Shown: one piece after another, positions 1 through 16,941 of the stretch
Numbering within the stretch: the first letter of the stretch is position 1
Layout of the letters: each line of letters starts with the position of its first letter
Virus record (IMG/VR): IMGVR_UViG_3300045009_000856
Coordinates: 1-45,491 of that record
From: a virus
DNA: 45,491 bases
Reading direction: 5' to 3' (one strand)
The notes under the pieces: generated by a model
The model's input: only the letters and a program-made list of their open reading frames with translations
Told to the model about the DNA's origin: nothing
Databases searched by the model: none
Translations under genes and position numbers: made by a program

Positions 1-806
1 CTTCCCGCTCGTTCGAGGGTAACTTGTCGATTGGCGTAACCAATTCGTTCGATAGCGGTTCCAAGCTTTTGAAGTTTCGGCATATCGATTGCCCCCGCAG
101 CAATAGCTCGTCCGATCCTTCTTATGGCACCCCATGAGCAACCCTGGCCCAATCGGTTTGTGAATTGTCCAGCCGCCGGGGTTTCGGGCGGGCATCTCCA
201 ACCCCCTCCCCCGGGAATCGTGTTGTCCCATACTGCTCGCGCACCCTTGACGCGAATCATCATCGCGCCAATATTTCTGTCTAAATGAAAGGCGGCTACC
301 TTGTAATCTACGGCTAGATGCTTGTACTGAACGTCAACAGCAGCGAGAGCGATGTCGACGATTGGCCAATGGTTGACGTCTTCTGACTCATCAAGGTCTG
401 CGTCATCGAACTCAAAAGCCTCTTCTCCGGAATTCTGAAAATTTGTTTTGGAGATGAAATCATACTTTGGTTGTATTTGTTTGAGTTGAAATCTTGGAAG
501 ATCGTCGATTATTACGAGGACTTTTTGAGACATGAGTCCAGATCGCATTGCATTGATCTCATTTAGGTCAAAAGAAGACGCAAGTTTTTCAATCTCTTTG
601 TCAGTCAATTTCTTTTTTTCGGTTGTCAACGTGAAATCGATCAGTTTTTCCACATCGTGAATTACCATCGACTGAGAGTTGATCCAGTTCGCCCAAACCT
701 TTCCATGGTCATTTGCTCCATGGGCCCGCACCGAATTTTTGTCGATGACGACTGCAGCAAAAGGCTGCATTGTGTCGCGTTCACGCACTACCAAAAGGTC
801 GCTCAT
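1..806 (-). CDS. Virion-associated protein, partial (runs off left edge)
   Basis: Open minus-strand frame of at least 268 residues that starts MSDLLVVRERD and has no stop before base 1. The ATG overlaps the TGA of the 686-residue gene by 4 bases (ATGA), so it is translationally coupled to it. Residues about 205-223 hold a Cys-to-Cys motif (CPPETP..., QFT at +9, second Cys at +18) that also occurs in the 686-residue and the giant proteins, which suggests a common family or a common handling signal. Residues 130-150 are acidic. No enzyme motif was recognised in the visible part. The function is unknown; membership of the virion internal-protein group is inferred from the shared motif and the operon position. 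Confidence 0.7.
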   Translation of the reverse strand, partial: MSDLLVVRERDTMQPFAAVVIDKNSVRAHGANDHGKVWANWINSQSMVIHDVEKLIDFTLTTEKKKLTDKEIEKLASSFDLNEINAMRSGLMSQKVLVIIDDLPRFQLKQIQPKYDFISKTNFQNSGEEAFEFDDADLDESEDVNHWPIVDIALAAVDVQYKHLAVDYKVAAFHLDRNIGAMMIRVKGARAVWDNTIPGGGGWRCPPETPAAGQFTNRLGQGCSWGAIRRIGRAIAAGAIDMPKLQKLGTAIERIGYANRQVTLERAG

Positions 807-2863
807 GAGCGCGCACCGATGATTTTTGCAAATACTTTTTTGGACGCCGAAAGACGCTTGAGTCTTGACTCGTAAAGCTTTTCAATTGCTTTCAAATGTG
901 CTTTTTCCCCAGATGAAAGATCTCCATCGATAGAAATTCTGGCCGCTATTTCGGATACGGACGTCGCCCTTGCACGTTCAAGCAGTTGCGTCAATAGCTC
1001 AAGGACTTGCTTTTTCTGGTCCGTCGATATCTGCTCGAAGTAATTTTTCCATTGATCTTGCAAATCCCGAGAATAAAAGTTTGGGAGATCAACGTCGTAT
1101 CGGGTGATCATTCTTCCGATGAGCGCAGATGGGTTGGCGCTCGGAACTGCGCGAAGACGGCCGCCGATTTGAACAGGTTGAATGTTTGATGGATTCCGAG
1201 ATCTTGTATCAGTCAGATAGTCCGCGACAGATATGGCAAGCATGTCCTCTACGGGAAGACGGTTGAAAGCATTTCGAGAAATATTTCCGCGACCGAAAGA
1301 ATCTTGAACTTGCGTAATCAGGTATGGAGTTTGTCTACCTGATCCAAGTCTGTAAACTTCAGGCGCAGCGACTCCGAGAGATTGCTGAATTTCTGATGAA
1401 ATGATTGCTCCAAGATGCTCGAAGTCTTCTTTCGGCCGTATTTCGTAGAAAGTCATTCCATCTCCACGTTCAAACAGGTTTACGCCGTCTTTGAATTTTT
1501 TACTCTTATATAGCGAACTGCGCTTCATCGCCGTTATTCTGATCGAGGAAGCAATATTTGATATATCTCCACCGGAATTCAGGTGTCTCACCGCGGCCGC
1601 AAGATCGGTAATGAATAGTGCTTTTTCCTTCGAGGTGTTGGTTGTAGCGGTTTCGATTGTTTTCGGCTTGCGCATTTTGGAAAAAGCGTCATAATGCCAT
1701 CGACGAACAAGTTTTTTCGCCCCACTAGAAGTGCGAACAGAAATAAGGTCGTTGGGATTTTTGACGTTTAGTTTTTCTGCGTACTGAATCCCTTCGCCCA
1801 TTTCCCCAGATATAAAGCGCAGCCTTGCGGCCGGGTCACTTGAATTCGGCATTTTTTCTGCCATGGAAACAGTTTTTCCAAGTTTGCGTCTTTCGCCGAC
1901 GGTAAGGTCTCTTGTCTTTGCAAGTTGAAGAAGTCCGCCATTGGGAAGAACGTAGGTGATTTTTTCTACTCCGCTGTTTGAAAGTAGTCCGAGTTCATTT
2001 CTACCAATTTGGTTTGGCGAAGAAACATTCATTGCATAGATCGCGCCTTCCATGTTTCTGTTGTCCGGAACGGTCCTGAGGACCGCTGCCGATACAATTG
2101 GTTCAAGAACAAAACCGTCTCTTCGAATAAGCCTTGTGGTGGGTTTTTCTGCGCCTGCCATGGCTCCATAAATTGCTTCTTCTGCATCGTCCAGGACGTT
2201 TATGTTTTTCGATCCCACTTTCGGAATATCGGCTGAACGTGAAGAAATTGGAGTTCCAAGCGGATACATTTGCTGTCTGAAAGTTCTGACGGCCAATTCC
2301 TGAAAACCTGGTTGTCTACCACCGCCGCGACCACGACCCAATCCCACTGCAGCTCTAAGCAGCATCGCCGGAAGGGCAAATAATTGTTTTCCGCATGTGG
2401 TGTATTGTTCGTTGGTGAATTGTCCGCCGAATTGAAAACCTTCAGGACATCTATATCCGCGTTCTGGTTTTAGCGCACCATAAGCATGGGCACCAAGACG
2501 ACCGAGAATATTGCGATTCGAGCCACCCGGGGTTATTGCAGACCACGTGGCCGATCGGACGGGTCTTCGGTATCGGGTGAAGTTTCCAGGCGTAATAGTA
2601 GACCCAACACCCTGAACGTACTGCAACCCGGGGGCCGGCGATGTGACGATGCCAACTTTGACATCAAATTTGTCCGGGTTTGAAGCAATATTTCTTGCGA
2701 GAGCAGCTTTGAACTCGAGCACTTTTTGTCTGGCAACAAACAAATCGAGCGGCTTTTCGTACACAAAATAAGGTTCATTTACCGACGCAGGTAGCACCGT
2801 ACGTTTGCGAACAACCGGCTGCTGCGGACAGCAGTCAGGTTCCGAAAAGATGACTGTCTTCAT
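803..2863 (-). CDS. Virion-associated protein with possible degenerate kinase-like C-terminal domain
   Basis: 686 residues, beginning with an ATG that overlaps the end of the upstream 218-residue gene by 29 bases. The N-terminus has a CCP motif at residues 11-13, similar to CCP at 9-11 of the giant protein. Residues 139-157 carry the shared Cys motif (CPEGF..., QFT at +9, second Cys at +18), followed by a Gly/Arg-rich linker at about 170-185. Residues about 470-590 resemble the HipA / phosphoinositide-kinase-like fold: a lobe ending in GVAAPEVYRLGSG, then a helix followed by DYLTDTRSRNPSN (548-560), which lines up with the D.L..N.DR..GN catalytic loop but has lost most key residues. The kinase reading is an inference and may describe only a pseudo-enzyme. 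The last 60 residues are helical and basic. Confidence 0.75.
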   Translation of the reverse strand: MKTVIFSEPDCCPQQPVVRKRTVLPASVNEPYFVYEKPLDLFVARQKVLEFKAALARNIASNPDKFDVKVGIVTSPAPGLQYVQGVGSTITPGNFTRYRRPVRSATWSAITPGGSNRNILGRLGAHAYGALKPERGYRCPEGFQFGGQFTNEQYTTCGKQLFALPAMLLRAAVGLGRGRGGGRQPGFQELAVRTFRQQMYPLGTPISSRSADIPKVGSKNINVLDDAEEAIYGAMAGAEKPTTRLIRRDGFVLEPIVSAAVLRTVPDNRNMEGAIYAMNVSSPNQIGRNELGLLSNSGVEKITYVLPNGGLLQLAKTRDLTVGERRKLGKTVSMAEKMPNSSDPAARLRFISGEMGEGIQYAEKLNVKNPNDLISVRTSSGAKKLVRRWHYDAFSKMRKPKTIETATTNTSKEKALFITDLAAAVRHLNSGGDISNIASSIRITAMKRSSLYKSKKFKDGVNLFERGDGMTFYEIRPKEDFEHLGAIISSEIQQSLGVAAPEVYRLGSGRQTPYLITQVQDSFGRGNISRNAFNRLPVEDMLAISVADYLTDTRSRNPSNIQPVQIGGRLRAVPSANPSALIGRMITRYDVDLPNFYSRDLQDQWKNYFEQISTDQKKQVLELLTQLLERARATSVSEIAARISIDGDLSSGEKAHLKAIEKLYESRLKRLSASKKVFAKIIGARS

Positions 2864-3569: not shown

Positions 3570-3818
3570 TTAGTTATCCCAAATGTCCCTTTTCTTTTTT
3601 TCTCTCACCTTTCGGAGCCTCATGCGCCACTTGCCGACATTGTCCATATTTATCCCCACGGGGGCCTCCCCCTCATCGGGCCGCATCGTTGAAAGCATTT
3701 GTAGCTCGGTCCCAGTCAACAGGTCGATGTCTTCCACCACAAATAATAGATCACCAAGGGGGCTAAAAATTTGCATCTCCCCAAGTTTGTTTATGAAAAT
3801 TCTCTCTGTTGTTTCCAT
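3570..3818 (-). CDS. Small hypothetical protein
   Basis: 82 residues. The ATG begins immediately after the TAA of the giant gene (no bases between), so it is almost certainly translated by coupling. The N-terminal half is hydrophobic and beta-rich (IFINKLGEMQIFSPLGDLLFVVEDI), and the C-terminal 25 residues are strongly basic (RMRLRKVREKKKRD). No family was recognised. Its position directly behind the giant virion protein suggests a helper such as a chaperone or assembly partner, but that is only a guess from gene order. Confidence 0.6.
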   Translation of the reverse strand: METTERIFINKLGEMQIFSPLGDLLFVVEDIDLLTGTELQMLSTMRPDEGEAPVGINMDNVGKWRMRLRKVREKKKRDIWDN

Positions 3819-6800
3819 TTAGTCGCCCTTATTCTCCATCCAAGTTTCCCCCTGTTCCGAGATCCAATCTTGTAAATACGAACGCAACATTTCGGGTGTC
3901 AACGCTTCGTATTCGCCCTTTTCATAGTCATACAGATTTATTAGGTCCAGTGCCGAATTCGGTTTGTCCGCATGAAAAATGTCGATGTGGCCGCCTTTAT
4001 ACTGTCCGATCCAATTTCCAATTTTATAACGTACCGCCGTGTCTCCGTCCTCGGTCACAACTATGTCATTCATCGAAAAACCCTGAGATAGCAGATCTTC
4101 AATAATCCTGGTGCGGCGGCGCACCTCATCTTCGTCGGGTGACATGGCACCGGAAAGTCCGCCAAGTTTTCCTCTTGCACCAGTTAGGCCGGTTCGCCTG
4201 GGATCATTCAATATTTCGTCTGCGTCCGGTTTTTTCCCAGCCCGGATCGCGTCTACCGCACGGGCCATGATGGCCAGGGAAACCTCATCCATCTCCGCCG
4301 GGTTGTTCCTCTTTGCGGAGATACCGAATATTGGTTTTGTCGTTCCGATAATTTGTCTTTCGTCTCCAGGGCCAAGGTCCGAGACAATGTCAACTCCATC
4401 CTGGCCGGAAACAAGCCACGCCGTTCCACGAAGTTGCGTTCCCCATCTAGCTTTTAGCCAGCCAGAAGAATCTTCCGGGATCACGCGATCGGCGTATCTG
4501 GCAAAATAGCCCCTACTGTCGATATTTCCGGCAGTCAGAGGAGAAGAAGAAGTGAATCCGCTTCGGGGGGATTTCATCAATTTTTCCACCCGCGGTTTAA
4601 GTGATTCAACTCTTTCGGTCGCCATCTTCATTTGTGAATTTATGCCATTCAGGCGGTCATTCATCACGAAATCAAGAAGATCATTGATGCTTTGTTTTCT
4701 TTCGGGTCTTGCACCGTAGGCCGGGAAGACTATTTCGTTTATTTTAGACAAATCAATTTCGTCTCCGATTTTCATTTTTCCAAGACTGTATTTGCTTCCC
4801 TCCAGATATTTGCCAAGGTTTCGCAAAAGCTGCAAATCAAGACGATCAGAAACCGTGATTTTTTCTTTGTTGTTCAACTTGGAAATAATAGCGTTGGCTC
4901 GAGAAAGAATTTGTTCTTGCTCCATTAGCTCCTGTTTGATTTTATTCATTTGCATCTTGTTTAGAGCCAAAGTGTCTCCCGGTGCACCCGGAGACCCACC
5001 AACACCCTGTGTTTTGTCTGGATTCAGGACGCCACCTTCCAATTCGGCCGCACCGGAGTGGACAACCAGGACTTCACCTTTTTTGCCCGTAGAAAATCTT
5101 TCACTAAATGCTTTTCTGTCTGTATCGCGCAACCGAATCAATTCTTCTTGCTCTTTCTTTAGTTGCGCGAGAGTCGCGTCATCTATATCTTCAATATCCA
5201 ACACATTTTGATCCATGCGAGTCTGTTTGGATTTTGCAAGATGTTTCTGGAGTTTTATTTCATCTTCCGCTTTCTTGAGTTTTTCGCGCGCTTGAGCCAA
5301 GACCTGATCTGTTGTTCTTCCGGTTGCTGCAAGCTCTTTGGCCGATCTATTTTGTGGTGTGATTCCGTCTGCGTCAATATCGTCAGCACTTATGTCTTTG
5401 TTTACCCCTAGCACGACCCCAAAATCGCCACCACGCCAATTGCCCGTTTTTTCCAATTCGTCGATCGCTTTGCGCATGTTTTTTGCGCGAGTCTCAGCAT
5501 TTTCGTGTTTTTCTTCAGCTAGGACCACCCCGGTTTGACGTTTCGTCATTCGTGCGTTCGAACTCGACATGGCACCGGAAAGTCCGCTTCTGGTTTTCGG
5601 GCTTATTCTTTCCAATTCTTCATCAACCATGGATACAAAATTGGAAATATTCTTAGGACTATTCGCTGAACTTTCGTTTTCCGGGTGGTCGAAAAGAGGC
5701 AGTGAACCCTGTTTTTCTGCACGTGATTTCCTGTATCTCAACAAGGCCTCATAGGGGGTCGTATTTTCATCGACGATGATTTCGCTCGCAGTGACATCTT
5801 GAAACTTTCCAGTTGAAATTTGCCTGTCAACCCATTTTCTGGTCATTGCTTTATTGAAGGGTTCAACTTCATCAAGTTTCAGATTCTGAGTATTATCAAC
5901 AATCACAACATCTATTCCGTATTTTTCAAACAAATCATCTCTTTGTCTCGCAGCAGCAATTAGATTTGTGAAACTATATTCAGGATTGGCACCAATCATA
6001 TTCATAGTTCCCTGTTTCCATATTTGCTCGCCCCTCAAAGCATGTGATTCTGAAACTATGGATTCCACATCCGTTAAGTCAAACCCGCCTACCGTAAGTG
6101 ATTCAACATATCTTTTTTTAGCGTTGGCCTCTGCGCTCGCAATTGTTTCTTTTCGACCAGTTCTTTTTTCGAAAAGAACCGCCAACGGGTCGAAAAACAT
6201 TGAAGCAATACGCCCATCTTTTGACAAGTTGGCCAAGCGTGCACCAGGCTCAAGAATGTCACTTCCGCTTTCGCTGACATCACTTACGGAGTCCCCGTTT
6301 ATTGCGAGAGTTCTTTCAGCAGTCTCCGGTCTAAGAACAATAGCGTTGCGTCCGTATTGTGCGCCATGATTCCACGTTTTTTTGCCTGTTCCAGTCAAAA
6401 CTGCCTCTCGTGCAGACTCGCCAACCACGGGGGCTGTGTGTTGAATTTCAATGTCATCACCATAGAGGTTTCTCAATTTTTTTGCTCTTTCTTCTGCTGA
6501 TACTTTTTGTAGTGCCATGGCCGACACAGGTCGCAGGGAATTTGTGTTTGGATCAGTGTCACCAGGGAAATTGAGTAATCTTGCTTCTTGTGCTCTTCTG
6601 ATTCCGGCAACATCCCAGGCTTCGCCAACAATGCCGCCCTGTGTCTTTCGGCCTTCATGAACGGTTTGATACCTCCCGGCCGTGATGAGTTCTATTGGGC
6701 TTCGCATCAGCACGGTCGGACGATTGTCAAATGGGCTTTCAAATGTGTCTACTGCCTCTTCGATGGCCTGATCAAATTGCTCAGGGGTCATAGATTGTAA

Positions 6801-9800
6801 TTCTTTTACAAAATCGTCTATTTCGGCAACGAGTTTAGAATCACCCCTAATGTCTGATATTTCTCTCAAAATCGCAAGCCTGTGGCCAAAACTATCGTCT
6901 CCGGGCGTTTGTCTCAATATTTCACGAGGGGATTTCGCTGGGTCATTGGCCAAATTCCTGACAATTTCTTTGTTCGTCGAGGTGAGATTTGGCGACAAAG
7001 CCCTGTCCTTTACCCACGATATAGTTGCGGGTCGGAGTCTGTCATCTTTATCTCTCTGCAATAATTTGGGAACGATTTCCCGTTCTTGCCTATCTATGTC
7101 CACGCCCATGCCACTGGCTTTGGCCAGTATGTCGACAGTTTTTTGACGCGATTCACTGTTTCTGGAATTGGCATTCATCACACGTCGCCGGTTCGGAAAT
7201 TTCACACCCGCAAGCTGAGGCGGCAACACCATCGGTTCGTCGTAGTAGGGGCGTTTACCCATCTCGTTGACATGTCTTTGCACTTCCCGGGGAGAAATAC
7301 CCCAATACGAAGAAATTCGTTCATACAACTGTTCAACTGTTTCACCAGGCTCCATGGTGTTGAACTGATTCCTGATGATGTTGGCCATGGGAAAATGGGT
7401 TTCTTCTTTCCAAATCCCTGGCGCGAAATAGGCATAGTTCCCTTCTCGAGCTTCCTTGGGCATACGCGGGTTTGGAATTTCCGGAAAATCTTTTGCTGCC
7501 GTCATCGCGCCAGTCAAACTCTGTCCTCGCGTGGTTCGAGGGGTTACTGAAACTATCACGTTCCCTGCGTGGTGTTTTCGTCCGTCGTTGTTCCATTCAA
7601 ACGGATGCAAACCGATAGACGGCTCCGTATGTACCCTTATTTCTCTTTCAGTAATCACACCGCCGGCAAGCCCGAATGCTTCATCAAATGACTTGCCCTG
7701 TTTGCGCAAATTCGTGAAGGTGGTTTTGTTAATTGACCTATCGTCGTAATCAAGACCAACAATCTTTCCGTTCGCCGCAATACCAACTCCCCTGTCAAAG
7801 CTGACCTTCAATGCCTGAAGGTCTTCTGTTGAAACAAAAACCGTATTTTCGAATTGTGTGCGAATTGGCTTGTCTTCTATTGTCGATCCAGTCGTTGGTT
7901 TGAATCGCGTCACCCGGCCAGATGGCTCAATCTCATATTTGGATCCTTGATCTGTTTCGAAACCGGAGAATTTTTTCGGGTCAACCCCCATTGCGCCGAA
8001 CAAACCGTAGGGTGACGCCTGCCGTATTTGTTTTTCAGTGGCCAATTCAACGGTCTTTTCTTCTGAATATTTAACCAAACCTATCTTTTTCGCATTTTCG
8101 TCAGAAATTTCCTTGTCGAAATTTAGTTTGCTGGCACGTGTCCGCCCATTGGGCAACTTAAATTCCACAACATCGTGCAATTCTCTTATAAGTTCTGTCA
8201 GTTCGTCTTTTTGATCTTTGTCGAGTCTCACTACGGAATCCCTTGAAGGGAGTCCGTCGATCAGATTTTTCAAACCAGTAGCAGCCTGTCGCGGACGGAC
8301 GGTGTCCGGTAAGTTGTCCTGCGCTCCATATTGGTCAAGGAGCATCATCAAAGTGAATCCCTCGGCAAATCTTTCAGTCCTTAGTGTTTTTGCATATTTG
8401 GAAGATTCCGCAACGATGCCGTCTGAATCGAGCAACCCATCCGCGGTGCCGAAAACCCCATTGTTGAAATCCCATCCAAGAGCGTCGGAGAGAATCTGAT
8501 CTATTCTTTTGGTGATTCGATTTACGTCTTTCTCTTTTCCTTTCATCACCATGGCAAATCCGCCGACGGTGTCCTCCGCAATCATCTCCGCGGTGCCGAG
8601 CTCCATGATTTGATAATCCAGACTTCTGCTTACATCAGTATCTACGTCAAGGGTCCCCGGAAGAAATTTATTTTCGACATATACCCCAGAAAGAGCCAAT
8701 GCCCTTACTCGCCCACCATCCAGCATGTTTTCTCTTGGGTGGCCATTTGCGCCCAGTGCCCAACCGGTGAAGTGAACCAGCGCGCTTTTTTCATTGTTGC
8801 CCATGTTGTCGAGTTTTGTGTTCAAAGGTCTTCCCGTAGCAAGTGCATAAAGCGCTCCAGGAACAGAGTCTCCAAGTTCCGGCCCGGCTGATCTCAACTG
8901 CCCAATAACGGGAGCCGAATCAAAACCGGTTTTTATACCCATTCCATTGAGCTGCGCAACAGTATCAAGATTGTGTCCCATCTCGTGGAAGCCAGTGGAA
9001 AGCATGGTCAACCTGTTTGATTTCGCAAAGTCGCCGACAAGATAATTGCCAGGTACATCAAAGTCCGGATCGTCTACGTCTTCTGCTAACCGCCCGACCG
9101 GGTCAGTCAGGAGATCGGGAAGTTCGAGAGGTGGATTTATTTTGAAATTCGGTATGATCCGACCGGAAACAAAGGTCAACCCAGCATAACCCATGGCCCT
9201 ATTTCCGCCCGGGCGCTGGCCTTTGTGTGGATCCAGAGACACGAGAACATCTTTGAGTTGTGGATATCGGTCAGTAACTTTTTTGACTGCGGCCAGGGTA
9301 GCAAAAACCATAGTTTGCATGACATTTTTGCGGTCGTTCGCAATTGCGTTTACGTCTCCGTTGACCAATCGGTCCATGTTGACGACGACCTCATCAACTT
9401 CTTTTTTGAATCTACGTTTTTTAAACTCCAATTTTTTCAATGTTTCGTCAAGTGTGAGTCCGGGATATGAGAGTTCGTGAATTTCAGCTGCGAGATCAGG
9501 ATTGTTTCTGTCTTTTTCCGCTTTAGCCTGAAGCGCCTTGATTTTGGCAATGTGTCGATCTTTTTTCTCAATTTTTTCTTGAAACTGGTCTATTGTAAAT
9601 TCCATCATTTCGAGATAATAATTGCGATAGCGTGGTCTTCGCATGTTTTCAAACGATTGGTCAATTTCTCGGGTTAGCTGAGTGCCACTTGCACGTCTGA
9701 CCATCGCCTTGTCGTTTACATACGCCGTCTGATTCATTGAATGAATGAAACCAATCCCGGCTTGTTTGGCCAGTTTTTCGAACACCCCAGGAGCTTCGAT

Positions 9801-12104
9801 GAGCACTCCGCCTTCCGGAGTCACGTCAGATAGATCTATGGAATCGGATATTACTTCGGCGCCTGCGAGCAGGTCGGCCGTAGTTGTATCAATGTCTCTG
9901 AATGCTTTTCTCGCGTCAATGCGAAGTGGCATGGTGTCCGAATTTTTTGGTCTATCCACATAGAGATCTCTCTGGGTAGAAGAAAGTGCGCCACTAAGAC
10001 GGCCGGTTCTATTGGTTGCGTTGATGCGCCGAGGAGCCATCGGTCCTGATAAGCCGGGTCCGGATGTCCCCCTTTTCCGAAATGGTATGAATCTTGACAA
10101 CCCGGAACGCGCAGTCGGAGTAGCTGGGATTGACGAACCGGTCGGTTTTACCGAAGCGCCAAGAAGAGTGTTGACGCCAAGCGCACTGTTTCGTGAATGC
10201 CACTCGTCTGGTGTTTTCCCGTAACCGACTGAATAAAAAATTCTGTTCATTGCTTGATATATGTTGTCCCGAATGGAATCCTCAGGTTCAGGTGTTGGAA
10301 ACATTCTCGGATTTGACGCTTGATATGCGGCCTGCTCTCTCGCATAATTGTCGATCACCTGCGGACCAAAATGTCTAATAACCGCATAGGCTTCCGCTCG
10401 TGCTTCGACGTAGTTTGAGTGTGCGTAGTCTGCGCCGACAACTCCTGCAAGAAGTTTGAAATCTTCTTCGGTTCCTCCGACGTCGTTTGTCATCGTTTGG
10501 TATAAAGTGGAATAAAATTCGGTAACCGCCTCTTTGGTGTCTTTTGCGTAGACGCGAACTTTTTGGCCACTTGGAAGTGTCTGCCATGCGCTTCCCGACT
10601 GGAAAGCTTCGATCCTGGTAATCATTGCTTTCAATTTGTCAATCTCGGGATTTGACGTGGGGTTTTGAATATTGCGCAGATCGACCAGCCATTCTCCGCC
10701 TTTCCCCCTTTTGAGCGTTAGGGGATCAAAACCCATATTTTTCATTGCTTGACTGAAATGTACGAGGTGACCGAATTCGTGGGTGCCTGTGTACAGGCCC
10801 TGAGACCGCATGTTGATCTGGGAACCGTGGCCGGTATGTCGCTTATCGCTTCCGTCTCCCTTGGCCATATAGTACGCAGCAACCGGATTGAACATCAGTG
10901 AAAATTTAAATCCACTTTGACTTACCGGCATGTTTTTGTCGTATACGGTGACACCTTTCTTGTTTGGGACACCCGCCGTACCCCTAAGATCCACCTCCCA
11001 TGCGTTGGCGGAACTAAGCATGGAACCCAGTTGTAGGTGAGTTATCCATCTCATTTTGTCTGGATGCTCTTTGGCCTCCATAAACCAACTCTGAAAAAAA
11101 GATTCAATGTAATCTTCCATCTGAGCTTTTTGAAGTGCGGTTAGCGGAGCATTCTCAAGCATGTTGTCCCAAAATTCCGCAGCCTGGGCCAGGTCGACGT
11201 TTGGCATTAGTTCCTGTACGGACAAAAGGAAGTTAGTTCTTCCTTGCGCGTTCGGTCTGAAATGAGTTATGGCTTGACCGCCTGGCAATCTGAAAAGACC
11301 TTGCTTAAAGTCGCTCGCAGTTGCCGTCGCTTGAACAATCATCGAGCGGCCACGGGCAAAGTTTTCTCTAGCACCAACGTAGGCCTGTCCGCCAAAACCG
11401 CCTGGATAATCTCTTGCCCCCGGATTCATTGCGCCCCGAAGTGCTCCGGCTGCTCTTCTCGCTGCTCTTGCTCCTGAAGAGATCGCTCCCGTGGGTTTCA
11501 GCGGAACGGGAATAAAACAATTGGATCCGGTTATGTCCGTGAACTGGTTTGCGTTGGGTGTACCGGGCGGACAGCGGAGCTTGTTTTTGTCATCCACCCA
11601 AAGGCCGCGTGCCCTTGACACCATGGACAAAAGTGAATAAACAGAGTCTTTTATTTTGGGTCCGAGAGATTTTTCGTCGAACCGACCCATCATTGCCAGG
11701 TCCGCATCGTTGAGCGGTCCGATACGCGGCTTTTTCTTTTTGTCCCTGTTTACGAGCCTTCCGCCGGAAATGTCATCGCACAGGGCGAAGCGAAAACCTG
11801 GAGGAATAAGTGGAAGTGGATCACCTGGTTCCCACTCATCAAGCCATTTTGTGTACGGCTTGATGCTGGACCTGCTGACCGTGGCTGCCTCTGCGTTGCG
11901 TTTTTTTGTCTCTTCGTCCAGGGCCTTGAATAAGACATCACCGAATGGTTTTAGCGGAACGATTTTTCGGGAAAGTTTTTCAGCGACCCTATCTATCGGG
12001 TTGGATGACTTAGTTCGAATTTTTTCAACTTGTTTCGGAACATGCGTATACGAAACGTGACGGCCAATCGACGGGCAACACTCAAAAGGTTCTACGTTTT
12101 CCAT
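3819..12104 (-). CDS. Giant multidomain virion protein (~2761 aa) with two zinc-metallopeptidase motifs
   Basis: An open frame also exists from a TTG at 12134, but ATG 12104 is preferred: it gives MENVEPFECCP, which matches the CCP N-terminus of the 686-residue protein. Domains (ATG numbering): Cys motif C178...C196 with QFT at 187-189; first zincin HEFGH 442-446, with EARAE at about 567-571 as possible third ligand; coiled-coil-like helices at about 825-910; second zincin HEMGH 1040-1044, with FAEGF (Glu1248) as likely third ligand; an unassigned region of about 1540-2170 with a YGRNAIVLRPETAERT...GDS segment weakly recalling phage ADP-ribosyltransferase/DUF3626-type proteins; helical region 2180-2500; C-terminal globular pieces. 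GLSGAM-like motifs at 222, 684, 703, 1530, 2174 and 2649 sit in Gly/Ser/Pro linkers between these parts. Likely an internal head protein processed and/or injected with the DNA; that role is inferred. Confidence 0.85.
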   Translation of the reverse strand: MENVEPFECCPSIGRHVSYTHVPKQVEKIRTKSSNPIDRVAEKLSRKIVPLKPFGDVLFKALDEETKKRNAEAATVSRSSIKPYTKWLDEWEPGDPLPLIPPGFRFALCDDISGGRLVNRDKKKKPRIGPLNDADLAMMGRFDEKSLGPKIKDSVYSLLSMVSRARGLWVDDKNKLRCPPGTPNANQFTDITGSNCFIPVPLKPTGAISSGARAARRAAGALRGAMNPGARDYPGGFGGQAYVGARENFARGRSMIVQATATASDFKQGLFRLPGGQAITHFRPNAQGRTNFLLSVQELMPNVDLAQAAEFWDNMLENAPLTALQKAQMEDYIESFFQSWFMEAKEHPDKMRWITHLQLGSMLSSANAWEVDLRGTAGVPNKKGVTVYDKNMPVSQSGFKFSLMFNPVAAYYMAKGDGSDKRHTGHGSQINMRSQGLYTGTHEFGHLVHFSQAMKNMGFDPLTLKRGKGGEWLVDLRNIQNPTSNPEIDKLKAMITRIEAFQSGSAWQTLPSGQKVRVYAKDTKEAVTEFYSTLYQTMTNDVGGTEEDFKLLAGVVGADYAHSNYVEARAEAYAVIRHFGPQVIDNYAREQAAYQASNPRMFPTPEPEDSIRDNIYQAMNRIFYSVGYGKTPDEWHSRNSALGVNTLLGASVKPTGSSIPATPTARSGLSRFIPFRKRGTSGPGLSGPMAPRRINATNRTGRLSGALSSTQRDLYVDRPKNSDTMPLRIDARKAFRDIDTTTADLLAGAEVISDSIDLSDVTPEGGVLIEAPGVFEKLAKQAGIGFIHSMNQTAYVNDKAMVRRASGTQLTREIDQSFENMRRPRYRNYYLEMMEFTIDQFQEKIEKKDRHIAKIKALQAKAEKDRNNPDLAAEIHELSYPGLTLDETLKKLEFKKRRFKKEVDEVVVNMDRLVNGDVNAIANDRKNVMQTMVFATLAAVKKVTDRYPQLKDVLVSLDPHKGQRPGGNRAMGYAGLTFVSGRIIPNFKINPPLELPDLLTDPVGRLAEDVDDPDFDVPGNYLVGDFAKSNRLTMLSTGFHEMGHNLDTVAQLNGMGIKTGFDSAPVIGQLRSAGPELGDSVPGALYALATGRPLNTKLDNMGNNEKSALVHFTGWALGANGHPRENMLDGGRVRALALSGVYVENKFLPGTLDVDTDVSRSLDYQIMELGTAEMIAEDTVGGFAMVMKGKEKDVNRITKRIDQILSDALGWDFNNGVFGTADGLLDSDGIVAESSKYAKTLRTERFAEGFTLMMLLDQYGAQDNLPDTVRPRQAATGLKNLIDGLPSRDSVVRLDKDQKDELTELIRELHDVVEFKLPNGRTRASKLNFDKEISDENAKKIGLVKYSEEKTVELATEKQIRQASPYGLFGAMGVDPKKFSGFETDQGSKYEIEPSGRVTRFKPTTGSTIEDKPIRTQFENTVFVSTEDLQALKVSFDRGVGIAANGKIVGLDYDDRSINKTTFTNLRKQGKSFDEAFGLAGGVITEREIRVHTEPSIGLHPFEWNNDGRKHHAGNVIVSVTPRTTRGQSLTGAMTAAKDFPEIPNPRMPKEAREGNYAYFAPGIWKEETHFPMANIIRNQFNTMEPGETVEQLYERISSYWGISPREVQRHVNEMGKRPYYDEPMVLPPQLAGVKFPNRRRVMNANSRNSESRQKTVDILAKASGMGVDIDRQEREIVPKLLQRDKDDRLRPATISWVKDRALSPNLTSTNKEIVRNLANDPAKSPREILRQTPGDDSFGHRLAILREISDIRGDSKLVAEIDDFVKELQSMTPEQFDQAIEEAVDTFESPFDNRPTVLMRSPIELITAGRYQTVHEGRKTQGGIVGEAWDVAGIRRAQEARLLNFPGDTDPNTNSLRPVSAMALQKVSAEERAKKLRNLYGDDIEIQHTAPVVGESAREAVLTGTGKKTWNHGAQYGRNAIVLRPETAERTLAINGDSVSDVSESGSDILEPGARLANLSKDGRIASMFFDPLAVLFEKRTGRKETIASAEANAKKRYVESLTVGGFDLTDVESIVSESHALRGEQIWKQGTMNMIGANPEYSFTNLIAAARQRDDLFEKYGIDVVIVDNTQNLKLDEVEPFNKAMTRKWVDRQISTGKFQDVTASEIIVDENTTPYEALLRYRKSRAEKQGSLPLFDHPENESSANSPKNISNFVSMVDEELERISPKTRSGLSGAMSSSNARMTKRQTGVVLAEEKHENAETRAKNMRKAIDELEKTGNWRGGDFGVVLGVNKDISADDIDADGITPQNRSAKELAATGRTTDQVLAQAREKLKKAEDEIKLQKHLAKSKQTRMDQNVLDIEDIDDATLAQLKKEQEELIRLRDTDRKAFSERFSTGKKGEVLVVHSGAAELEGGVLNPDKTQGVGGSPGAPGDTLALNKMQMNKIKQELMEQEQILSRANAIISKLNNKEKITVSDRLDLQLLRNLGKYLEGSKYSLGKMKIGDEIDLSKINEIVFPAYGARPERKQSINDLLDFVMNDRLNGINSQMKMATERVESLKPRVEKLMKSPRSGFTSSSPLTAGNIDSRGYFARYADRVIPEDSSGWLKARWGTQLRGTAWLVSGQDGVDIVSDLGPGDERQIIGTTKPIFGISAKRNNPAEMDEVSLAIMARAVDAIRAGKKPDADEILNDPRRTGLTGARGKLGGLSGAMSPDEDEVRRRTRIIEDLLSQGFSMNDIVVTEDGDTAVRYKIGNWIGQYKGGHIDIFHADKPNSALDLINLYDYEKGEYEALTPEMLRSYLQDWISEQGETWMENKGD
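4141..4162 (-). repeat. 22-bp exact repeat encoding GLSGAM (copy 1)
   Basis: Identical at all 22 bases to 5566-5587 inside the same giant gene; both encode GGLSGAMS-type linkers. Other copies of the motif differ in DNA, so either the two are recent relatives or the nucleotide sequence is constrained. Confidence 0.75.
5566..5587 (-). repeat. 22-bp exact repeat encoding GLSGAM (copy 2)
   Basis: Second copy of the 22-base match with 4141-4162, encoding SGLSGAMSS at residues about 2173-2181 of the giant protein, in the linker before the helical region. Confidence 0.75.
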
Positions 12105-12193
12105 ACGGCTCTCTATACCGACCCCTATCCTCAATCATCCCACACGACCAGCATGAAGAATCGGCATGGAATACGGCCAAGCCGCATCCGGGC

Positions 12194-13708
12194 TTAGATG
12201 TTTTCTGGCTTGTTTTCGTCAATTTCGGCAGAAAGAAGCTCAAACTCCATAAGCGATGAGAGGAACTTGCCCTCTTCCGATCCAGCAGTGACTTCGCTGG
12301 TTGAATCAGACTTATTACCCCAGTTGCCCGGAATGAGATCTTCAAGCTTGAGTGCCTTGGCTCTCTTCATAATGTGGGCTTTTGCGGCGGCCTTGTCTTT
12401 GGCTCTTCCAAATGCCTGAATGGCATTTCTTAGATCGGCTTCATCTGCAATCGGGTACGAACCGTCTGGGAGCGCACTTCCCGATTGCGCCATTTCTTTT
12501 CTTGATTCGTCCGAGTAGGCGCGCTTGAGTGCGATCTCTGCGGCCTCTGCTTCGATCTCGGTTGCTTCCTCTGAGGTGTACTCGTCATAGCCAAGTACAT
12601 TTCCTTCGAGGTCAACAAAAACGTCGTAAGACTTTCCGTCGATACCGTCGATTTCCACCGCGTAGGCGTCGAAGCCATCAAAAATATCTGGCTCAACAGC
12701 AATGACTTCACCCTGAACGCTCTTGACTGCAATGTCTGCAGCGTCATGAAAGCCAATTACAACTCTTCCCTGATTCGCGCTCTTGAATTCCGTCGGATCC
12801 ATTTCGATTTTGTGCCAGCCAAGAATTTCTCCGCTAGTTCCATCGACAAAAACTTCCACCGGAGTTCCGTCTTTTCTTTCTACGTCAAGAACGAAAGTGT
12901 CAAGCCTTTCCGTGTAGCCGGAATCAAGAACTTTTCCGCTGATGGCATCTTCGACCATACCCTCAACTTCAAGCAGTGACGGCATGCCGCCTTCCCCAAC
13001 GCAGCCACCTGGGCAGCTTTCGCAAACTTGATGGCCAGCCGGATACACCTTTCGTTCAAAAGCACAAATAAACGGCTCGTCGTCGAAGTCGTCGGCCTTA
13101 TATCCCATGGATGCCAGACGTCTTTGTCGCATCTTTTTGCGCATCTCCATCTGGTCTTCTTCATCATCTTCCATGTTCATGTCCATGGGCATTTCTTCGG
13201 ACATCATTTTTTGAGTCTTCTTTTTCTTTTTTTTGCCCGCAATGGCCACGTACTGGGGATCCGCTCCGGGTCCCATCATCATGTGGCCCTTCTCGACATC
13301 TTCATCTTCGTCTTCGTCTTCGTCGTCCATCTCATCTTCGGCGAGTTCCTCATCCGTCTCTTCATCATCGAGTACGTCCATCTCGTCGTCAGACGGCATG
13401 TCTGCGTCGTCAAGATCCTCTTCCGTCTCATCGTCTGACATCATGGATGCAGCGACCATTGGCCGACGTCTTCCTGTCATATGGGTCGCTTTTTCCTCAC
13501 CGTCCAGAAAAGTTTCGTCGATTGCTGTGTCATCATTTTCCATGTCGATGTCCTCGTCTTCTTTGGCCTGAACTGCCATTGCACCACATTGCACACAGAC
13601 TTTAGCCTGCGGGCTATAACCACAGTCGCTAATAGCCAGCCCCTTAGCGCACGAGATGAGATTCCCGTCCGATCCGAGTTTTGCCACCATCATTTTTCTG
13701 TCAGCCAT
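12194..13708 (-). CDS. Acidic head-operon protein with two PepSY-like repeats and C-terminal DUF6582-like region
   Basis: About 504 residues from ATG 13708 (MADRKMM), which overlaps the previous gene's stop by 8 bases and has an AAGGAC-type ribosome site; a longer GTG form at 13765 is less likely. Order: N-terminal four-Cys segment (ISCAKG...DCGY...CVQCG, zinc-ribbon-like); long Asp/Glu-rich low-complexity tract; FICAFERKVYP...CESCPGGC Cys cluster; two repeats ending in EVFVDGTSGEILGWH and DVFVDLEGNVLGYD, the pattern of PepSY domains; then SGSALPDGSYPI...NAIQAFGRAKD, resembling DUF6582 of phage head proteins. PepSY domains are known as propeptide inhibitors of thermolysin-type metallopeptidases. 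The next gene encodes two HExxH domains, so an inhibitor or chaperone role is an attractive inference. A scaffold-like role is the alternative, given the acidic tract and position after the protease. Confidence 0.75.
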   Translation of the reverse strand: MADRKMMVAKLGSDGNLISCAKGLAISDCGYSPQAKVCVQCGAMAVQAKEDEDIDMENDDTAIDETFLDGEEKATHMTGRRRPMVAASMMSDDETEEDLDDADMPSDDEMDVLDDEETDEELAEDEMDDEDEDEDEDVEKGHMMMGPGADPQYVAIAGKKKKKKTQKMMSEEMPMDMNMEDDEEDQMEMRKKMRQRRLASMGYKADDFDDEPFICAFERKVYPAGHQVCESCPGGCVGEGGMPSLLEVEGMVEDAISGKVLDSGYTERLDTFVLDVERKDGTPVEVFVDGTSGEILGWHKIEMDPTEFKSANQGRVVIGFHDAADIAVKSVQGEVIAVEPDIFDGFDAYAVEIDGIDGKSYDVFVDLEGNVLGYDEYTSEEATEIEAEAAEIALKRAYSDESRKEMAQSGSALPDGSYPIADEADLRNAIQAFGRAKDKAAAKAHIMKRAKALKLEDLIPGNWGNKSDSTSEVTAGSEEGKFLSSLMEFELLSAEIDENKPENI

Positions 13709-14168
13709 TGAAATTTTGTCCTTTAAAATGCATAATCCCGGACAGGCAGCCTTTAGGGTGGCCACACCCTGCGCATGGGCTCATGCGCTTCTCTCCCGAA
13801 ACCATGCAATTATATTTGTTGTTGACGGCCGCAAGACCACCGTTTTTAGGATAACCCATTGCGGGGTTGTTCTGTTGCACCAACGATCGTCTCGCCGACA
13901 AATTCATTCGGCTACCGGTTGCTTTGACAAGCAAGTCTGTGATTTCGTTTATCTCCTCATCATCGAGATGATCAATTTGAGACAAGCGAATCCCGTTTTC
14001 GGTTGTTTTGACTTGGAAACCATCCTGCGAAGCCAAAAGATCGACTAATGATTTGACAAGAGCTGCGTCTTGCTCGGCCACAGAAACATCTATTCCGGCG
14101 TCACCGAATAGAGCTTTAACTCCATATTCTTCAAAATTGGCAAGCATTTTGTCGGCGCTGTCAATCAT
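13701..14168 (-). CDS. Cys-containing head-operon protein of unknown function
   Basis: 155 residues from an ATG 14 bases after the prohead-protease stop. The N-terminal two thirds are helical and acidic (MIDSADKMLANFEEYGV...), with HLDDEEINEITDLLVKA near the middle. A similar NLQEDEYNDLIELIDDF stretch occurs in the protease about residue 510, so the two proteins may share a short helical domain. The C-terminal 40 residues contain NKYNCMVSG and then CAGCGHPKGC, a compact three-Cys-plus-His knuckle that could bind zinc. The stop overlaps the ATG of the PepSY gene. No family was recognised. Confidence 0.65.
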   Translation of the reverse strand: MIDSADKMLANFEEYGVKALFGDAGIDVSVAEQDAALVKSLVDLLASQDGFQVKTTENGIRLSQIDHLDDEEINEITDLLVKATGSRMNLSARRSLVQQNNPAMGYPKNGGLAAVNNKYNCMVSGEKRMSPCAGCGHPKGCLSGIMHFKGQNFNG

Positions 14169-14182
14169 GATGTCAAATATTC

Positions 14183-16843
14183 CTATTTACGGAACTTGTC
14201 AAGTTCTGGCATGTATCGCTTTGGGGTGTTTTGTCTCATGCCTCTGGCACGATTGATTTTCGGATCAACTTTGCGGAATGTTGTGTATGAGCCGTCTGAA
14301 ACGACTTGCTCGTGCAGGTCAGCAGCCTGACGGAAGAGTTCGGCTGCTTCTGGGTCGTTGTATTCCCGGAGCATGACTTTTGCTTGCGCGCGCATGGCAT
14401 TGATCATGTCTTTATGGGTGTAGCTGAAACCATCTTTTTCCGGCGTTGATGGCATCCACTCTCCACGAAGGGCGTCTTCTGTTTGCCAAAACATTGCCGC
14501 AGTGTCATCGTCAAGACCTCTGGCCGCTAATGAGTCTCTCTTGAGAAGCGCCTCATGAAATTTTTGTGCGAGAGACTCTCTCTTGCGGAGCTGGTTGATG
14601 TATTTCAGTTCCATCTGTCGGACTCTTTTGCGGCTCATCTTCAGTCTTCGGGCAGTTTCATCGAGACGCTCATTCAGATTCATTCGCGATTCGAAAATCT
14701 CGCGAGGACTCCTTCCAGGTCGACCCATTCCTCCCGTGAGGCCAACGGGAACGCGAGGTCTTACCGGTGTGGGACGCACTGGCTGGGGGACGGGGATCGG
14801 TGGTTGCGGAACTCTCGGTTTCTGCGGCTCCCTCTCCGGAATCGGTACGGGCTCTTTTGCCGGTTTTGGCTCTTCTTGTGGCACCCCCGGCATCATTCTC
14901 ATAGGGGGTCTGCGTCGTCGATCGCGGCCAACGGGAACGCGAGGTCTTACCGGTGTGGGACGTACTGGCTGAGGAGCGGGGATCGGTGGTTGCGGAACTC
15001 TCGGTTTCTGCGGCTCTCTCTCGGGAATCGGTACGGGCTCCCTTGCCGGTTTTGGCTCTTCTTGTGGCACCCCCGGCATCATTCTTGCGAGAGCTGGCTT
15101 TCGAATGCGTGCATCAGGCTTTCGAATGCGTGCATCAGGCCGTTCGAAAAGTGTGCCTTCCTGGACCAGTCTGTCCCCATCGGCGTCAATCGCGTCTGGA
15201 TCAAATGCCGTAAATACGCCGCGTGCTCCGCGGCGGGCCCTTCCGAGTGTTGCGCCGAGTTTCTTTTCTTCGAAATCGTCGATTAGTTCAATCAGATCGT
15301 TGTATTCATCCTCTTGTAGGTTGTCTATGTTCTTGATGGCCAGACCGACATCAAGCAGTTCAACGTCAAGTTCTTTCTCGCCAGCCGCATCGTTCAGAGC
15401 ACCCAACAGTCCGATGTCGTCTGCGCTGTGAATGAAAAGGTGTTTGCCTGGGTTGAGTTCTTTGAAAACATTCCACGATGGCATTGGTTTGCCGCAAGAA
15501 TCACATCCGCATCCGCCATAATTGTTTTTCCGTGGGGATCCGTCCCACCCGAACGCATGCGCTGGACGGCTTGTATCAGTCGGAACGTATACGACTTGCG
15601 GTTTGACTTCTTCTGAAGTTCCGAACATGTATCCGTCTCCTTGTGAATGGTAAGGAATTCTCAAGGTGGTGTTTGTTCCATCTCTTCGCATTTCCGCAAC
15701 AATCATGTTCTGATCGGCGTACACGATTCTGCATGGGCCGCCAAAGTGTCTCGCTACTGCTTCGGTAAGAGCAAGACGTGCAACATCCTGCGGTCTCGCA
15801 AGACTGATTCCAACTGCGTAGACATCATGAATGTGATTCTTGGTCTGAATATCAGATTCATCTGATTTCTCTTTGGTGTTTTCGTATCGCTCCAGGAGTC
15901 TTCTTCCCTTTGCGGCGAGTTTTGCCGCATCTGAGCGATCTTGTGGAACGGGTTCACCCCAAGCGGCAGCCGAAAGCGCCAAACGTGTTGGTCTTCCTTT
16001 TGCATCTTTCATTGGCCCGCGTGGATTGGTGAAAAAACGGGTGAGGAAGGAACCTTTTCTTCTCATCTTTTGCGGAGTATTTGCGGCACCTTTTACGCCA
16101 GGCTTCAGGTTTGCACCTTCAGTCCGCTTGAAATGTGCACGGCCAGCGGCAGTCAAACCGCCCTTGGGATCCTTGAGCGGCTGACCTTTTTGCTCAATCG
16201 GAACGCAATTCGGAACCATTTTTCCATTCTTGCCCATCTTCATTCCGACCTGCTTGTACCCCTCCCAGCACGGGCCGCTAGTTGAGGCTTTCTCCTTGGT
16301 CTCCGCATCTATCAAATCGGCTTTGATTGAAATTGTTCCAGTGAGTTGATTTGCTCCGTGGAGAACCGGGGAAACTTCGTAAAGTTCCACTTCTTTGAGA
16401 AGGTTTGCTTTTTGTGCAGGATCGTAAACGGCATCGAGTGTCTTGTAGCCGATCGACCACTCCTGTTCGGCGCCAAAAAACGAAACGTTTGCGAAAGCCT
16501 CACGACCTCTTTCGGACTTCAGGTTGAACTGGACCTTGGCAAAAAGGCCGCCAACCCCACCCGAACGCATCTTTACCGGAAGGCGTGGATCATTGGGGGG
16601 TACTTCGAAGATCTCGAGGACCTTGCCGATTGGCTCGTTCCAATTGTGGCCCCAAACAACGCGGGGTTTGCGACGCTTCAAGCTTCCGTTGAAAGCCCCT
16701 GGGAGCACCACATCACCAACGGAATCTTTATTTCCTATAGCAGCAACGAAACATTCGACTATGCCGCGGGCCTCGTCGACGCTGACCTGTCCATCAAGAG
16801 CCTTGTACTCGGCGACATTTGACTCAATACTTGTATTTTTCAA
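14183..16843 (-). CDS. Multidomain HK97-type prohead serine protease with C-terminal sigma-region-4-like HTH
   Basis: 886 residues from a TTG start preceded by GTGGAG at good spacing. Residues 1-180 are a caudoviral prohead protease: VVWGHNWNEPIG with His66, EWSIGYK with Ser130, and SPVLHGANQLTG after them. This enzyme normally trims scaffold and capsid proteins. It is followed by CWEGYKQVGM...PNC, a GGLTAAGRAHFKR...KPTRLALSAAAWGEPVP block (DUF6321-like, as in other phage proteases), and FDPDAIDADGDRLVQEGT (about 547-564). Next is a Pro-rich stretch made of two nearly identical 62-residue units (about 580-700), then GLTGGM at 701-706. Residues about 721-757 contain LDETARRLKMSRKRVRQ, matching the helix-turn-helix of sigma-70 region 4. 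Family proteases are usually 200-300 residues, so this is a fusion or polyprotein. A GLTGGM-type site inside it could allow self-processing (inferred). Confidence 0.88.
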   Translation of the reverse strand: MKNTSIESNVAEYKALDGQVSVDEARGIVECFVAAIGNKDSVGDVVLPGAFNGSLKRRKPRVVWGHNWNEPIGKVLEIFEVPPNDPRLPVKMRSGGVGGLFAKVQFNLKSERGREAFANVSFFGAEQEWSIGYKTLDAVYDPAQKANLLKEVELYEVSPVLHGANQLTGTISIKADLIDAETKEKASTSGPCWEGYKQVGMKMGKNGKMVPNCVPIEQKGQPLKDPKGGLTAAGRAHFKRTEGANLKPGVKGAANTPQKMRRKGSFLTRFFTNPRGPMKDAKGRPTRLALSAAAWGEPVPQDRSDAAKLAAKGRRLLERYENTKEKSDESDIQTKNHIHDVYAVGISLARPQDVARLALTEAVARHFGGPCRIVYADQNMIVAEMRRDGTNTTLRIPYHSQGDGYMFGTSEEVKPQVVYVPTDTSRPAHAFGWDGSPRKNNYGGCGCDSCGKPMPSWNVFKELNPGKHLFIHSADDIGLLGALNDAAGEKELDVELLDVGLAIKNIDNLQEDEYNDLIELIDDFEEKKLGATLGRARRGARGVFTAFDPDAIDADGDRLVQEGTLFERPDARIRKPDARIRKPALARMMPGVPQEEPKPAREPVPIPEREPQKPRVPQPPIPAPQPVRPTPVRPRVPVGRDRRRRPPMRMMPGVPQEEPKPAKEPVPIPEREPQKPRVPQPPIPVPQPVRPTPVRPRVPVGLTGGMGRPGRSPREIFESRMNLNERLDETARRLKMSRKRVRQMELKYINQLRKRESLAQKFHEALLKRDSLAARGLDDDTAAMFWQTEDALRGEWMPSTPEKDGFSYTHKDMINAMRAQAKVMLREYNDPEAAELFRQAADLHEQVVSDGSYTTFRKVDPKINRARGMRQNTPKRYMPELDKFRK
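14741..15085 (-). repeat. 186-bp-period tandem duplication encoding a Pro-rich linker
   Basis: Two near-identical 159-base copies at 14741-14899 and 14927-15085, offset by exactly 186 bases. They encode MMPGVPQEEPKPA.EPVPIPE and the following Pro-rich residues twice inside the prohead-protease gene. The offset is divisible by three, so the frame is kept. The few mismatches suggest a recent duplication, or one kept alike by conversion. Confidence 0.85.
15096..15137 (-). repeat. Perfect 21-bp tandem repeat
   Basis: Two exact adjacent 21-base units that encode PDARIRK twice, between the DxDGD motif and the Pro-rich duplication in the prohead-protease gene. Confidence 0.85.
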
Positions 16844-16911: not shown

Positions 16912-16941
16912 ATTTAAGTAAATCTCGAATTTACGTAAATC
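16912..16941. promoter_or_regulatory. Paired ATTTA(A/C)GTAAATC palindromic sites before the prohead-protease gene
   Basis: The 96-base gap between portal stop and protease start contains ATTTAAGTAAATC (16912-16924) and ATTTACGTAAATC (16929-16941), 17 bases apart. The core ATTTACGTAAAT of the second is a perfect palindrome, and a shorter ATAAGTAAAC lies at about 16888. The gap is far more AT-rich than its surroundings. This looks like a dimeric repressor/activator operator or a phage-specific promoter element controlling the leftward operon. No -35/-10 pair could be fixed with confidence. Confidence 0.45.

Follow-up and report, generated by a model that had tools for sequence, protein, structure and literature searches.

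A giant head-operon protein with two zincin-like units and recurrent linker peptides: a probable modular cargo polyprotein of uncultured actinophage-like viruses

Introduction

What kind of protein has 2771 residues, carries two zinc-peptidase-like motifs, and is encoded among the head genes of an uncultured virus? The gene is in a virus record of 45,491 bases (GC 0.49); we refer to this whole stretch of DNA as the window. We propose that the giant protein is a modular, polyvalent cargo polyprotein that is cut at its linkers by the prohead protease, and that its modules enter the host with the DNA. We infer the cleavage, the packaging, the injection, and the targets, and we put the probability of this reading at roughly 0.6. 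The strongest feature of the system is a recurrent linker motif, together with the fusion of the S78 protease to giant proteins in relatives of this virus. Neither was part of the initial annotation of this DNA.

Results

The giant protein is encoded in a head operon

All coordinates in the window are on the minus strand, unless stated otherwise. The giant ORF (3819..12134) is in a region that also encodes a 773-aa portal-MuF fusion (16940..19261; PF04860 and PF04233) and an 886-aa S78 prohead protease with DUF6321 and a long tail (14183..16843; PF04586, 1.7e-11), which is the presumed processing enzyme. A 155-aa ORF and a 523-aa ORF (12194..13765) lie between the protease and the giant. The 523-aa protein is very acidic and has a PepSY match; its position and composition suggest that it is a scaffold. 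After the giant are a 218-aa ORF and a 686-aa ORF (803..2863). The operon continues in L002, another record of this virus, with a 2056-aa ORF (L002 21329-27499, plus strand), a 131-aa ORF, a 2273-aa ORF, and an HK97-type major capsid protein. The 2273-aa ORF (L020:471-7292, plus strand) is just before the capsid gene and contains NUDIX and zeta-toxin domains, each of which is preceded by GLTGA[MI]. The terminase gene is on the opposite strand of the window from the head operon. So, the portal-MuF, S78 protease, capsid, and terminase genes share one region with the giant, which is the genomic context of polyvalent proteins.

Two other features of these proteins were seen by inspection. The C-terminal part of the 2056-aa protein looks like an ADP-ribosyltransferase (PGSGGTAYGNGENF), with no match in Pfam. 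Also, an EF-hand-like sequence, FDPxAxDxDxDxxxQ(E/D)GTxxERP, is found in the protease's tail, in the 2273-aa ORF, and in an ORF after the capsid gene (L020:9093-10256), and similar sequences are found in L053, L054, and L056.

By portal and capsid, the closest cultured phages are the actinophages Gilgamesh, Cantare, and GMA6, and a contig from an Actinomycetota MAG encodes a capsid protein that is 70% identical. The host is therefore likely to be an actinobacterium, and probably an aquatic one.

The giant protein is conserved and modular

The giant is encoded by a single uninterrupted frame of 2771 codons that begins with TTG. The initial annotation had also described one long frame here, of 2761 codons, which corresponds to an ATG ten codons downstream. 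The frame is identical over its full length in one other record and over the 1731 residues that are covered in a second record. More distant homologs are found in L021 (57% identity) and L006 (48% identity). The identical frames in other records rule out an assembly artifact, and so do these diverged homologs. Searches for families and structures (Pfam, PHROG, NCBIfam, and PDB) gave no significant match for the giant, and two zincin-like units are its only recognizable domains.

Comparison to relatives divides the giant into modules. The N-terminal module (aa 1-230; 11445..12134) contains a Cys motif and is predicted to be a head-targeting part or propeptide. In the window and in G004, G009, G014, G015, and G023, this module is followed by a motif site, at about aa 231-246. 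The zincin 1 module (aa 237-693; 10056..11426) has homologs in seven phages. The zincin 2 module, which includes a predicted coiled coil (aa 718-1376; 8007..9983), has homologs in four phages. Then come module A (aa 1545-2183; 5586..7502), module B (aa 2190-2648; 4191..5567), and a C-terminal module (aa 2665-2771; 3822..4142). Residues 1662-2199, mostly in module A, match residues 2048-2595 of the giant from G004, where module B stands before module A instead of after it. Despite the reversed order, there is a linker motif at each joint. The orthologous protein from G009 (L158:4629-11936, plus strand) has a DnaJ domain at its C-terminal end, possibly a chaperone cargo, and a motif-like copy immediately precedes this domain.

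The Cys motif (LRCPPGTPNANQFTDITGSNCFIP; 11508..11579, aa 186-209), which had been noticed in the initial annotation as well, is real: RCPPGTPNANQFTDITGSNCF spans aa 187-207, and the motif also occurs in most of the relatives (in nearly every lineage that we examined) and in two further large ORFs of this operon, of 686 and 2056 aa. In those two ORFs the motif is of the type RCP..x..FT....C and lies near the N-terminal third of each protein (in the 686-aa protein, RCPEGFQFGGQFT...C). This motif may be a marker of the head-packaged proteins of this clade.

Two zincin-like units with conserved ligands

The two HExxH motifs of the giant are HEFGH (aa 452-456; 10767..10781) and HEMGH (aa 1050-1054; 8973..8987). 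These are the motifs that the initial annotation placed at 442-446 and 1040-1044, and its suggestion that each is followed by a third glutamate ligand holds up in divergent relatives. Across the zincin 1 sequences of seven phages (25-63% identity), HExGH is invariant, and so are both glutamates of the putative third-ligand helix, E(A/T)xxE (EARAE in the window; aa 577-581; 10392..10406). For zincin 2, HExGH is retained in four phages, and a second helix (TERFAEGF in the window; aa 1253-1260; 8355..8378) has the pattern E-x-[FV]-A-E-x-F-x-L in all three sequences that reach that far. When we shuffled sequences with the giant's composition, the chance expectation for HExxH was 0.03 per protein, and two or more occurred in just 0.05% of 2000 shuffles. 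These patterns of conservation suggest that the two units are probably zinc proteases, and with the operon context, they bear out the earlier description of a multi-module polyprotein with two zinc-peptidase-like units among the head genes.

Neither unit has a convincing match in Pfam, PHROG, NCBIfam, or PDB. Neither matches MPTase-PolyVal (PF18818) in Pfam, and neither has any profile similarity to the PF18818 domains of G030 and G034. AlphaFold models from three-row alignments are unreliable (pLDDT of 45.5 for zincin 1 and 33.3 for zincin 2), and they are too weak to confirm the zincin fold: the order of secondary structures around both HExxH motifs is compatible with it, but is no more reliable than the models themselves. 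The two units had been called unrelated-looking, which needs some qualification: in a profile-profile comparison, their third-ligand helices align with E = 0.0014, but with a probability of just 17%, so they may be distant paralogs.

Two HExxH units, each with a plausible glutamate helix, are also present in the giants of L054, G018, G045, and G009, so the two-zincin arrangement recurs. (In L054, G018, and G045, the zincin types look unlike those of the window.) Nor is the arrangement as unusual as was first thought. According to a survey of polyvalent proteins (Iyer et al. 2017, PMC5512222), 36% of them have 1-5 MPTases and about 8% have more than one, so two zincins in one chain are not by themselves novel.

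A recurrent peptide separates the modules

The peptide G-L-[ST]-G-A-M, or a variant of it, recurs between the giant's modules, in the tail of the protease, and in the 2273-aa ORF downstream. Within the giant, there are seven copies: ALRGAM (11427..11444), where relatives have GLIGAM, GLVGAM, or GVVGAM; GLSGPM (10038..10055); RLSGAL (9984..10001); GLFGAM (7989..8006), near which are GLTGAM in G004 and GLIGRM in G009; SLTGAM (7503..7520); GLSGAM (5568..5585); and another GLSGAM (4143..4160), which is preceded by a degenerate copy, GLTGAR (4173-4190). The C-terminal tail of the S78 protease has GLTGGM at aa 701 (14726..14743). The giants of L021 and L006 have similar copies at the corresponding places. 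In the 2273-aa protein, copies at 1465 and 1837 enclose the NUDIX domain. Orthologous linkers in this protein are GLTGAM in the window's virus, L034, and L035 and GVTGKM, GVRGAM, or GAVGAM in L036, with the position and the flanks retained.

Across the head operon, we found seven matches to L[ST]G[AP][ML], as compared to 0.09 expected, and seven matches to the strict form, as compared to 0.01 expected; the motif was first spotted by eye in the giant, and we settled on the exact patterns once we had looked at the data. The window's tail-side frames (9,491 aa) contain no copies, and the capsid precursor of this lineage does not carry the motif.

Because GAM ends in ATG, we considered whether the motif could be an internal translation start. 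The codons ahead of the ATG vary, and the motifs of several other lineages lack the methionine or have it in another position, so we rejected this idea.

Each lineage has its own motif

To look for similar motifs in relatives, we used the best 80 of 184 loci from a scan of viral contigs for the capsid protein, and we counted recurrent pentapeptides without supervision. Many other lineages have a recurrent peptide of their own: RLSSG/RFSSG, KLSSG, GLSSGR, RGLRS, RGMASR, SISGRM, or FASTS. For example, there are 18 copies of RLSSG/RFSSG (0.03 expected), 20 of [LF]SSG[RAK] (0.08 expected), and 10 of RGMAS (0.01 expected), as well as 7 of RGLRS, 7 of FASTS, and 5 of ISGRM. Overall, a matrix of genomes by motifs comes out almost diagonal: there are 5 to 20 copies where 0.003-0.08 would be expected. 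Additional variants within the same frame are G[VL]VG[AR]M in G009 and [GN]I[STV]GKM in G015. We did not find a clear recurrent motif in G045, G026, or L161. When the motifs are aligned on their hydrophobic residue, all of them share the core hydrophobic-x-[S/G]-x.

Within a genome, the copies of the motif are spelled with different synonymous codons (9/10, 11/12, 15/15, 10/10, and 8/8 distinct DNA words), which implies that selection acts on the peptide. The copies also tend to lie between domains. Among 37 copies in five proteins, none were within Pfam domains, while 5.2 would be expected (P = 0.003), and order-promoting residues are less frequent in their flanks (21.5% vs. 28.6%). A single ORF can have up to 15 copies, and close doublets are also seen (GLSSGRSAGLSSGR, FASSSAGSRRAFASTS). 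The enzymes that stand between copies are complete. In G030, copies at 1089 and 1444 enclose a unit with ArdcN and MPTase. In G034, the UvrD core lies between copies at 2080 and 2761, and a copy at 3818 opens an ArdcN and MPTase unit that runs to the end of the protein. A recurrent site between modules that is confined to head proteins and is absent from tail-side frames is what we would expect of a processed polyprotein.

The S78 protease leads many of the giants

We found the S78 domain in the contigs of 31 of 44 relatives (among the best 80 of 184 loci). In 15 of these 31, a frame of about 1,600-4,800 amino acids begins with S78 (specifically 4804, 4202, 3963, 3563, 3369, 3054, 2954, 2910, 2489, 2429, 2305, 2297, 2250, 1935, and 1585). 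We inspected 20 of the S78 regions, choosing those with long frames first. The remaining five, among which are the closest kin of the window, have S78 ORFs of 776-1002 amino acids. The catalytic motifs of S78 are intact in all of them, and WGHNW and EWSIGY are conserved across 21 aligned proteases. In other words, a protease that appears to be active is present either in cis or in the operon, as we would expect if the polyproteins are processed.

The other domains in these proteins would fit a cargo function. The domain order is S78, ArdcN, MPTase-PolyVal, and UvrD in G030 and S78, UvrD, ArdcN, and MPTase-PolyVal in G034, so these sister giants combine domains of disparate activity (ArdC, MPTase, and UvrD), as polyvalent proteins do. 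Across the clade, similar giants have ArdC, MPTase-PolyVal zincin, UvrD helicase, NUDIX, and zeta-toxin domains. Judging by PMC5512222, this content is typical of proteins that are predicted to be packaged and injected.

The class of motif tracks the tree of the S78 protease, which is confounded by common descent. So is an association with the capsid: the capsid precursor contains LSSR in 24 of the 28 loci with at least two copies of [LF]SSG, but in just 3 of the 44 loci with none (among the best 80 of 184), which would fit a shared enzyme. Although the linker motifs vary widely, the core of the protease hardly changes. This implies that either one S78 enzyme accepts all of the motifs or another factor reads the motif. 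The shared hydrophobic-x-[S/G] core would allow one conserved enzyme to accept the motifs of all of the lineages.

Discussion

A model for processing and its alternatives

We propose that the N-terminal ~230 residues, with the Cys motif, probably direct the giant to the prohead. This module would be analogous to the capsid-targeting propeptides of T4 and to the long propeptides of SPN3US (PMC5694885). The S78 prohead protease would then cut at G-L-[ST]-G-A-M, or in other lineages at peptides with the same hydrophobic-x-[S/G] core. Cutting inside the head would free folded modules: zincin 1, the coiled coil with zincin 2, and at least two more. These would remain with the packaged DNA and then enter the host, where the zincins would most likely be effector or counter-defense proteases, or else secondary processing enzymes. 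The initial annotation had suggested an injected effector package that might cut host targets or the cell wall. The first part gains support from the sister giants, with their domains typical of proteins that are predicted to be packaged and injected, but we saw no domain in the giant that would support cell-wall cutting, and nothing else points there.

In the main rival explanation, the giants stay uncut, and the recurrent peptide serves as a binding motif (for cargo loading or for a scaffold) by which they dock inside the prohead. This would also account for the restriction of the motif to head-operon proteins, and the copies within a genome would evolve together with any single partner that recognizes them. 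There is also a precedent, as PMC5512222 describes the N4 virion RNA polymerase as a giant that is packaged uncut. We consider docking to be rather unlikely, given that the copies are at module boundaries, and in large numbers rather than one per protein; that close doublets would suit the excision of a linker better; and that the protease is fused to its substrate in many relatives, and the window's protease has a copy of the motif in its tail. Could the embedded zincins, instead of S78, process the polyprotein, as proposed for polyvalent MPTases (DdrB)? Polyvalent proteins contain zincins more often than any other domain, their autoprocessing has already been proposed (PMC5512222), and several of our lineages have two zincins per chain. 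Yet the motif is also found in the 2273-aa ORF, which is a giant without HExxH, and it is the S78 tree that the motif class tracks, so we find this idea quite improbable.

The remaining alternatives deny a function to the zincins or to the linker. The HExxH units might be inactive, degenerate domains with a structural role in an internal head protein, which would explain why they match no zincin family or structure and have no profile similarity to the relatives' MPTase-PolyVal; the unreliable AlphaFold models do nothing to dispel this concern. Yet one would not expect structural remnants to retain their ligands, and in zincin 1 HExGH and the downstream glutamate helix are invariant even at 25% identity; modules with HExxH and a glutamate helix also recur in sister giants. 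So, we are very doubtful that the units are degenerate. Finally, modules A and B, with motifs at their boundaries, are in opposite orders in the giants of the window and G004, which might indicate that the linker is a recombination joint, that is, a DNA-level repeat for the shuffling of modules that has no function in the protein. A DNA repeat predicts the opposite of what we see, as the peptide is kept while the DNA of the copies differs synonymously almost every time. This largely refutes the DNA-level repeat, and we give it hardly any credence.

What is new and why it would matter

Polyvalent head-packaged proteins, the processing of internal proteins by prohead proteases, and multiple zincins in one protein are already known. 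As far as our tools and the open literature show, the new features are the N-terminal S78 leader and the lineage-specific peptide at module boundaries: in the open-access literature, we found no description of either a recurrent lineage-specific linker motif or a polyvalent fusion with N-terminal S78. Among the closest cultured relatives that we inspected (a non-exhaustive set), no phage has a giant that is led by S78.

If the motif is a cutting site, then the borders of the modules could be read from the sequence for thousands of unassigned residues of giant proteins, and each cargo enzyme could be expressed in the form that the phage makes. The lineages would amount to a collection of proteases and sites that are naturally matched. 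Also, the head cargo of tailed phages and its injection would become testable in an abundant aquatic group. As for the two zincins, they would become candidate early effectors that counter host defenses by proteolysis.

Comparison to known systems

The polyvalent proteins of PMC5512222 are the closest parallel. In that paper, they are multi-domain giants that are encoded beside virion genes and portal-MuF, zincin-like peptidases are their commonest domains, and there is often more than one per protein; their processing by embedded peptidases was proposed there. The sister giants in our clade resemble them, as they carry ArdcN, MPTase-PolyVal, UvrD, NUDIX, and zeta-toxin domains. In contrast, the two zincins of the window do not match any model that we tested, including MPTase-PolyVal. 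The placement of the protease differs as well: the assemblin-like (prohead) peptidase of polyvalent proteins was reported to be always C-terminal, while S78 is N-terminal in many of our relatives and is a separate gene in the window. In the passages of that paper that we consulted, there is no description of a recurrent lineage-specific linker motif.

Cultured actinophages also have large unassigned ORFs between the portal and the capsid, namely gp48 of Streptomyces phage Gilgamesh (4624 aa), Orf12-14 of Gordonia phage GMA6 (of which Orf13 is an ADP-ribosyltransferase), and gp11 of Brevibacterium phage Cantare. In these phages the gene for the head protease is separate and short, and we detected neither homology to the giant nor a recurrent linker peptide.

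In T4, phiKZ, and SPN3US, N-terminal propeptides bring internal or ejected proteins into the prohead, and the head protease cuts these proteins as well as itself (PMC5694885). The sites are short motifs (A-x-E in SPN3US and S-x-E in phiKZ), and some proteins have several of them. The processing that we propose would be similar, in that a head protease would cut internal proteins at a short motif. But the sites in those phages mostly serve to remove propeptides, while here the motif separates many modules within a chain; the enzyme also differs, being an HK97/S78-type protease, and all copies of the motif shift together from one lineage to another. On balance, we lean slightly towards a broader view, in which a large clade of uncultured actinophage-like viruses makes S78-led chains of cargo enzymes, of up to about 4,800 residues, that would cut themselves at a lineage-specific site whose copies all change together. 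These chains would be the counterpart, in double-stranded DNA phages, of the polyproteins of RNA viruses.
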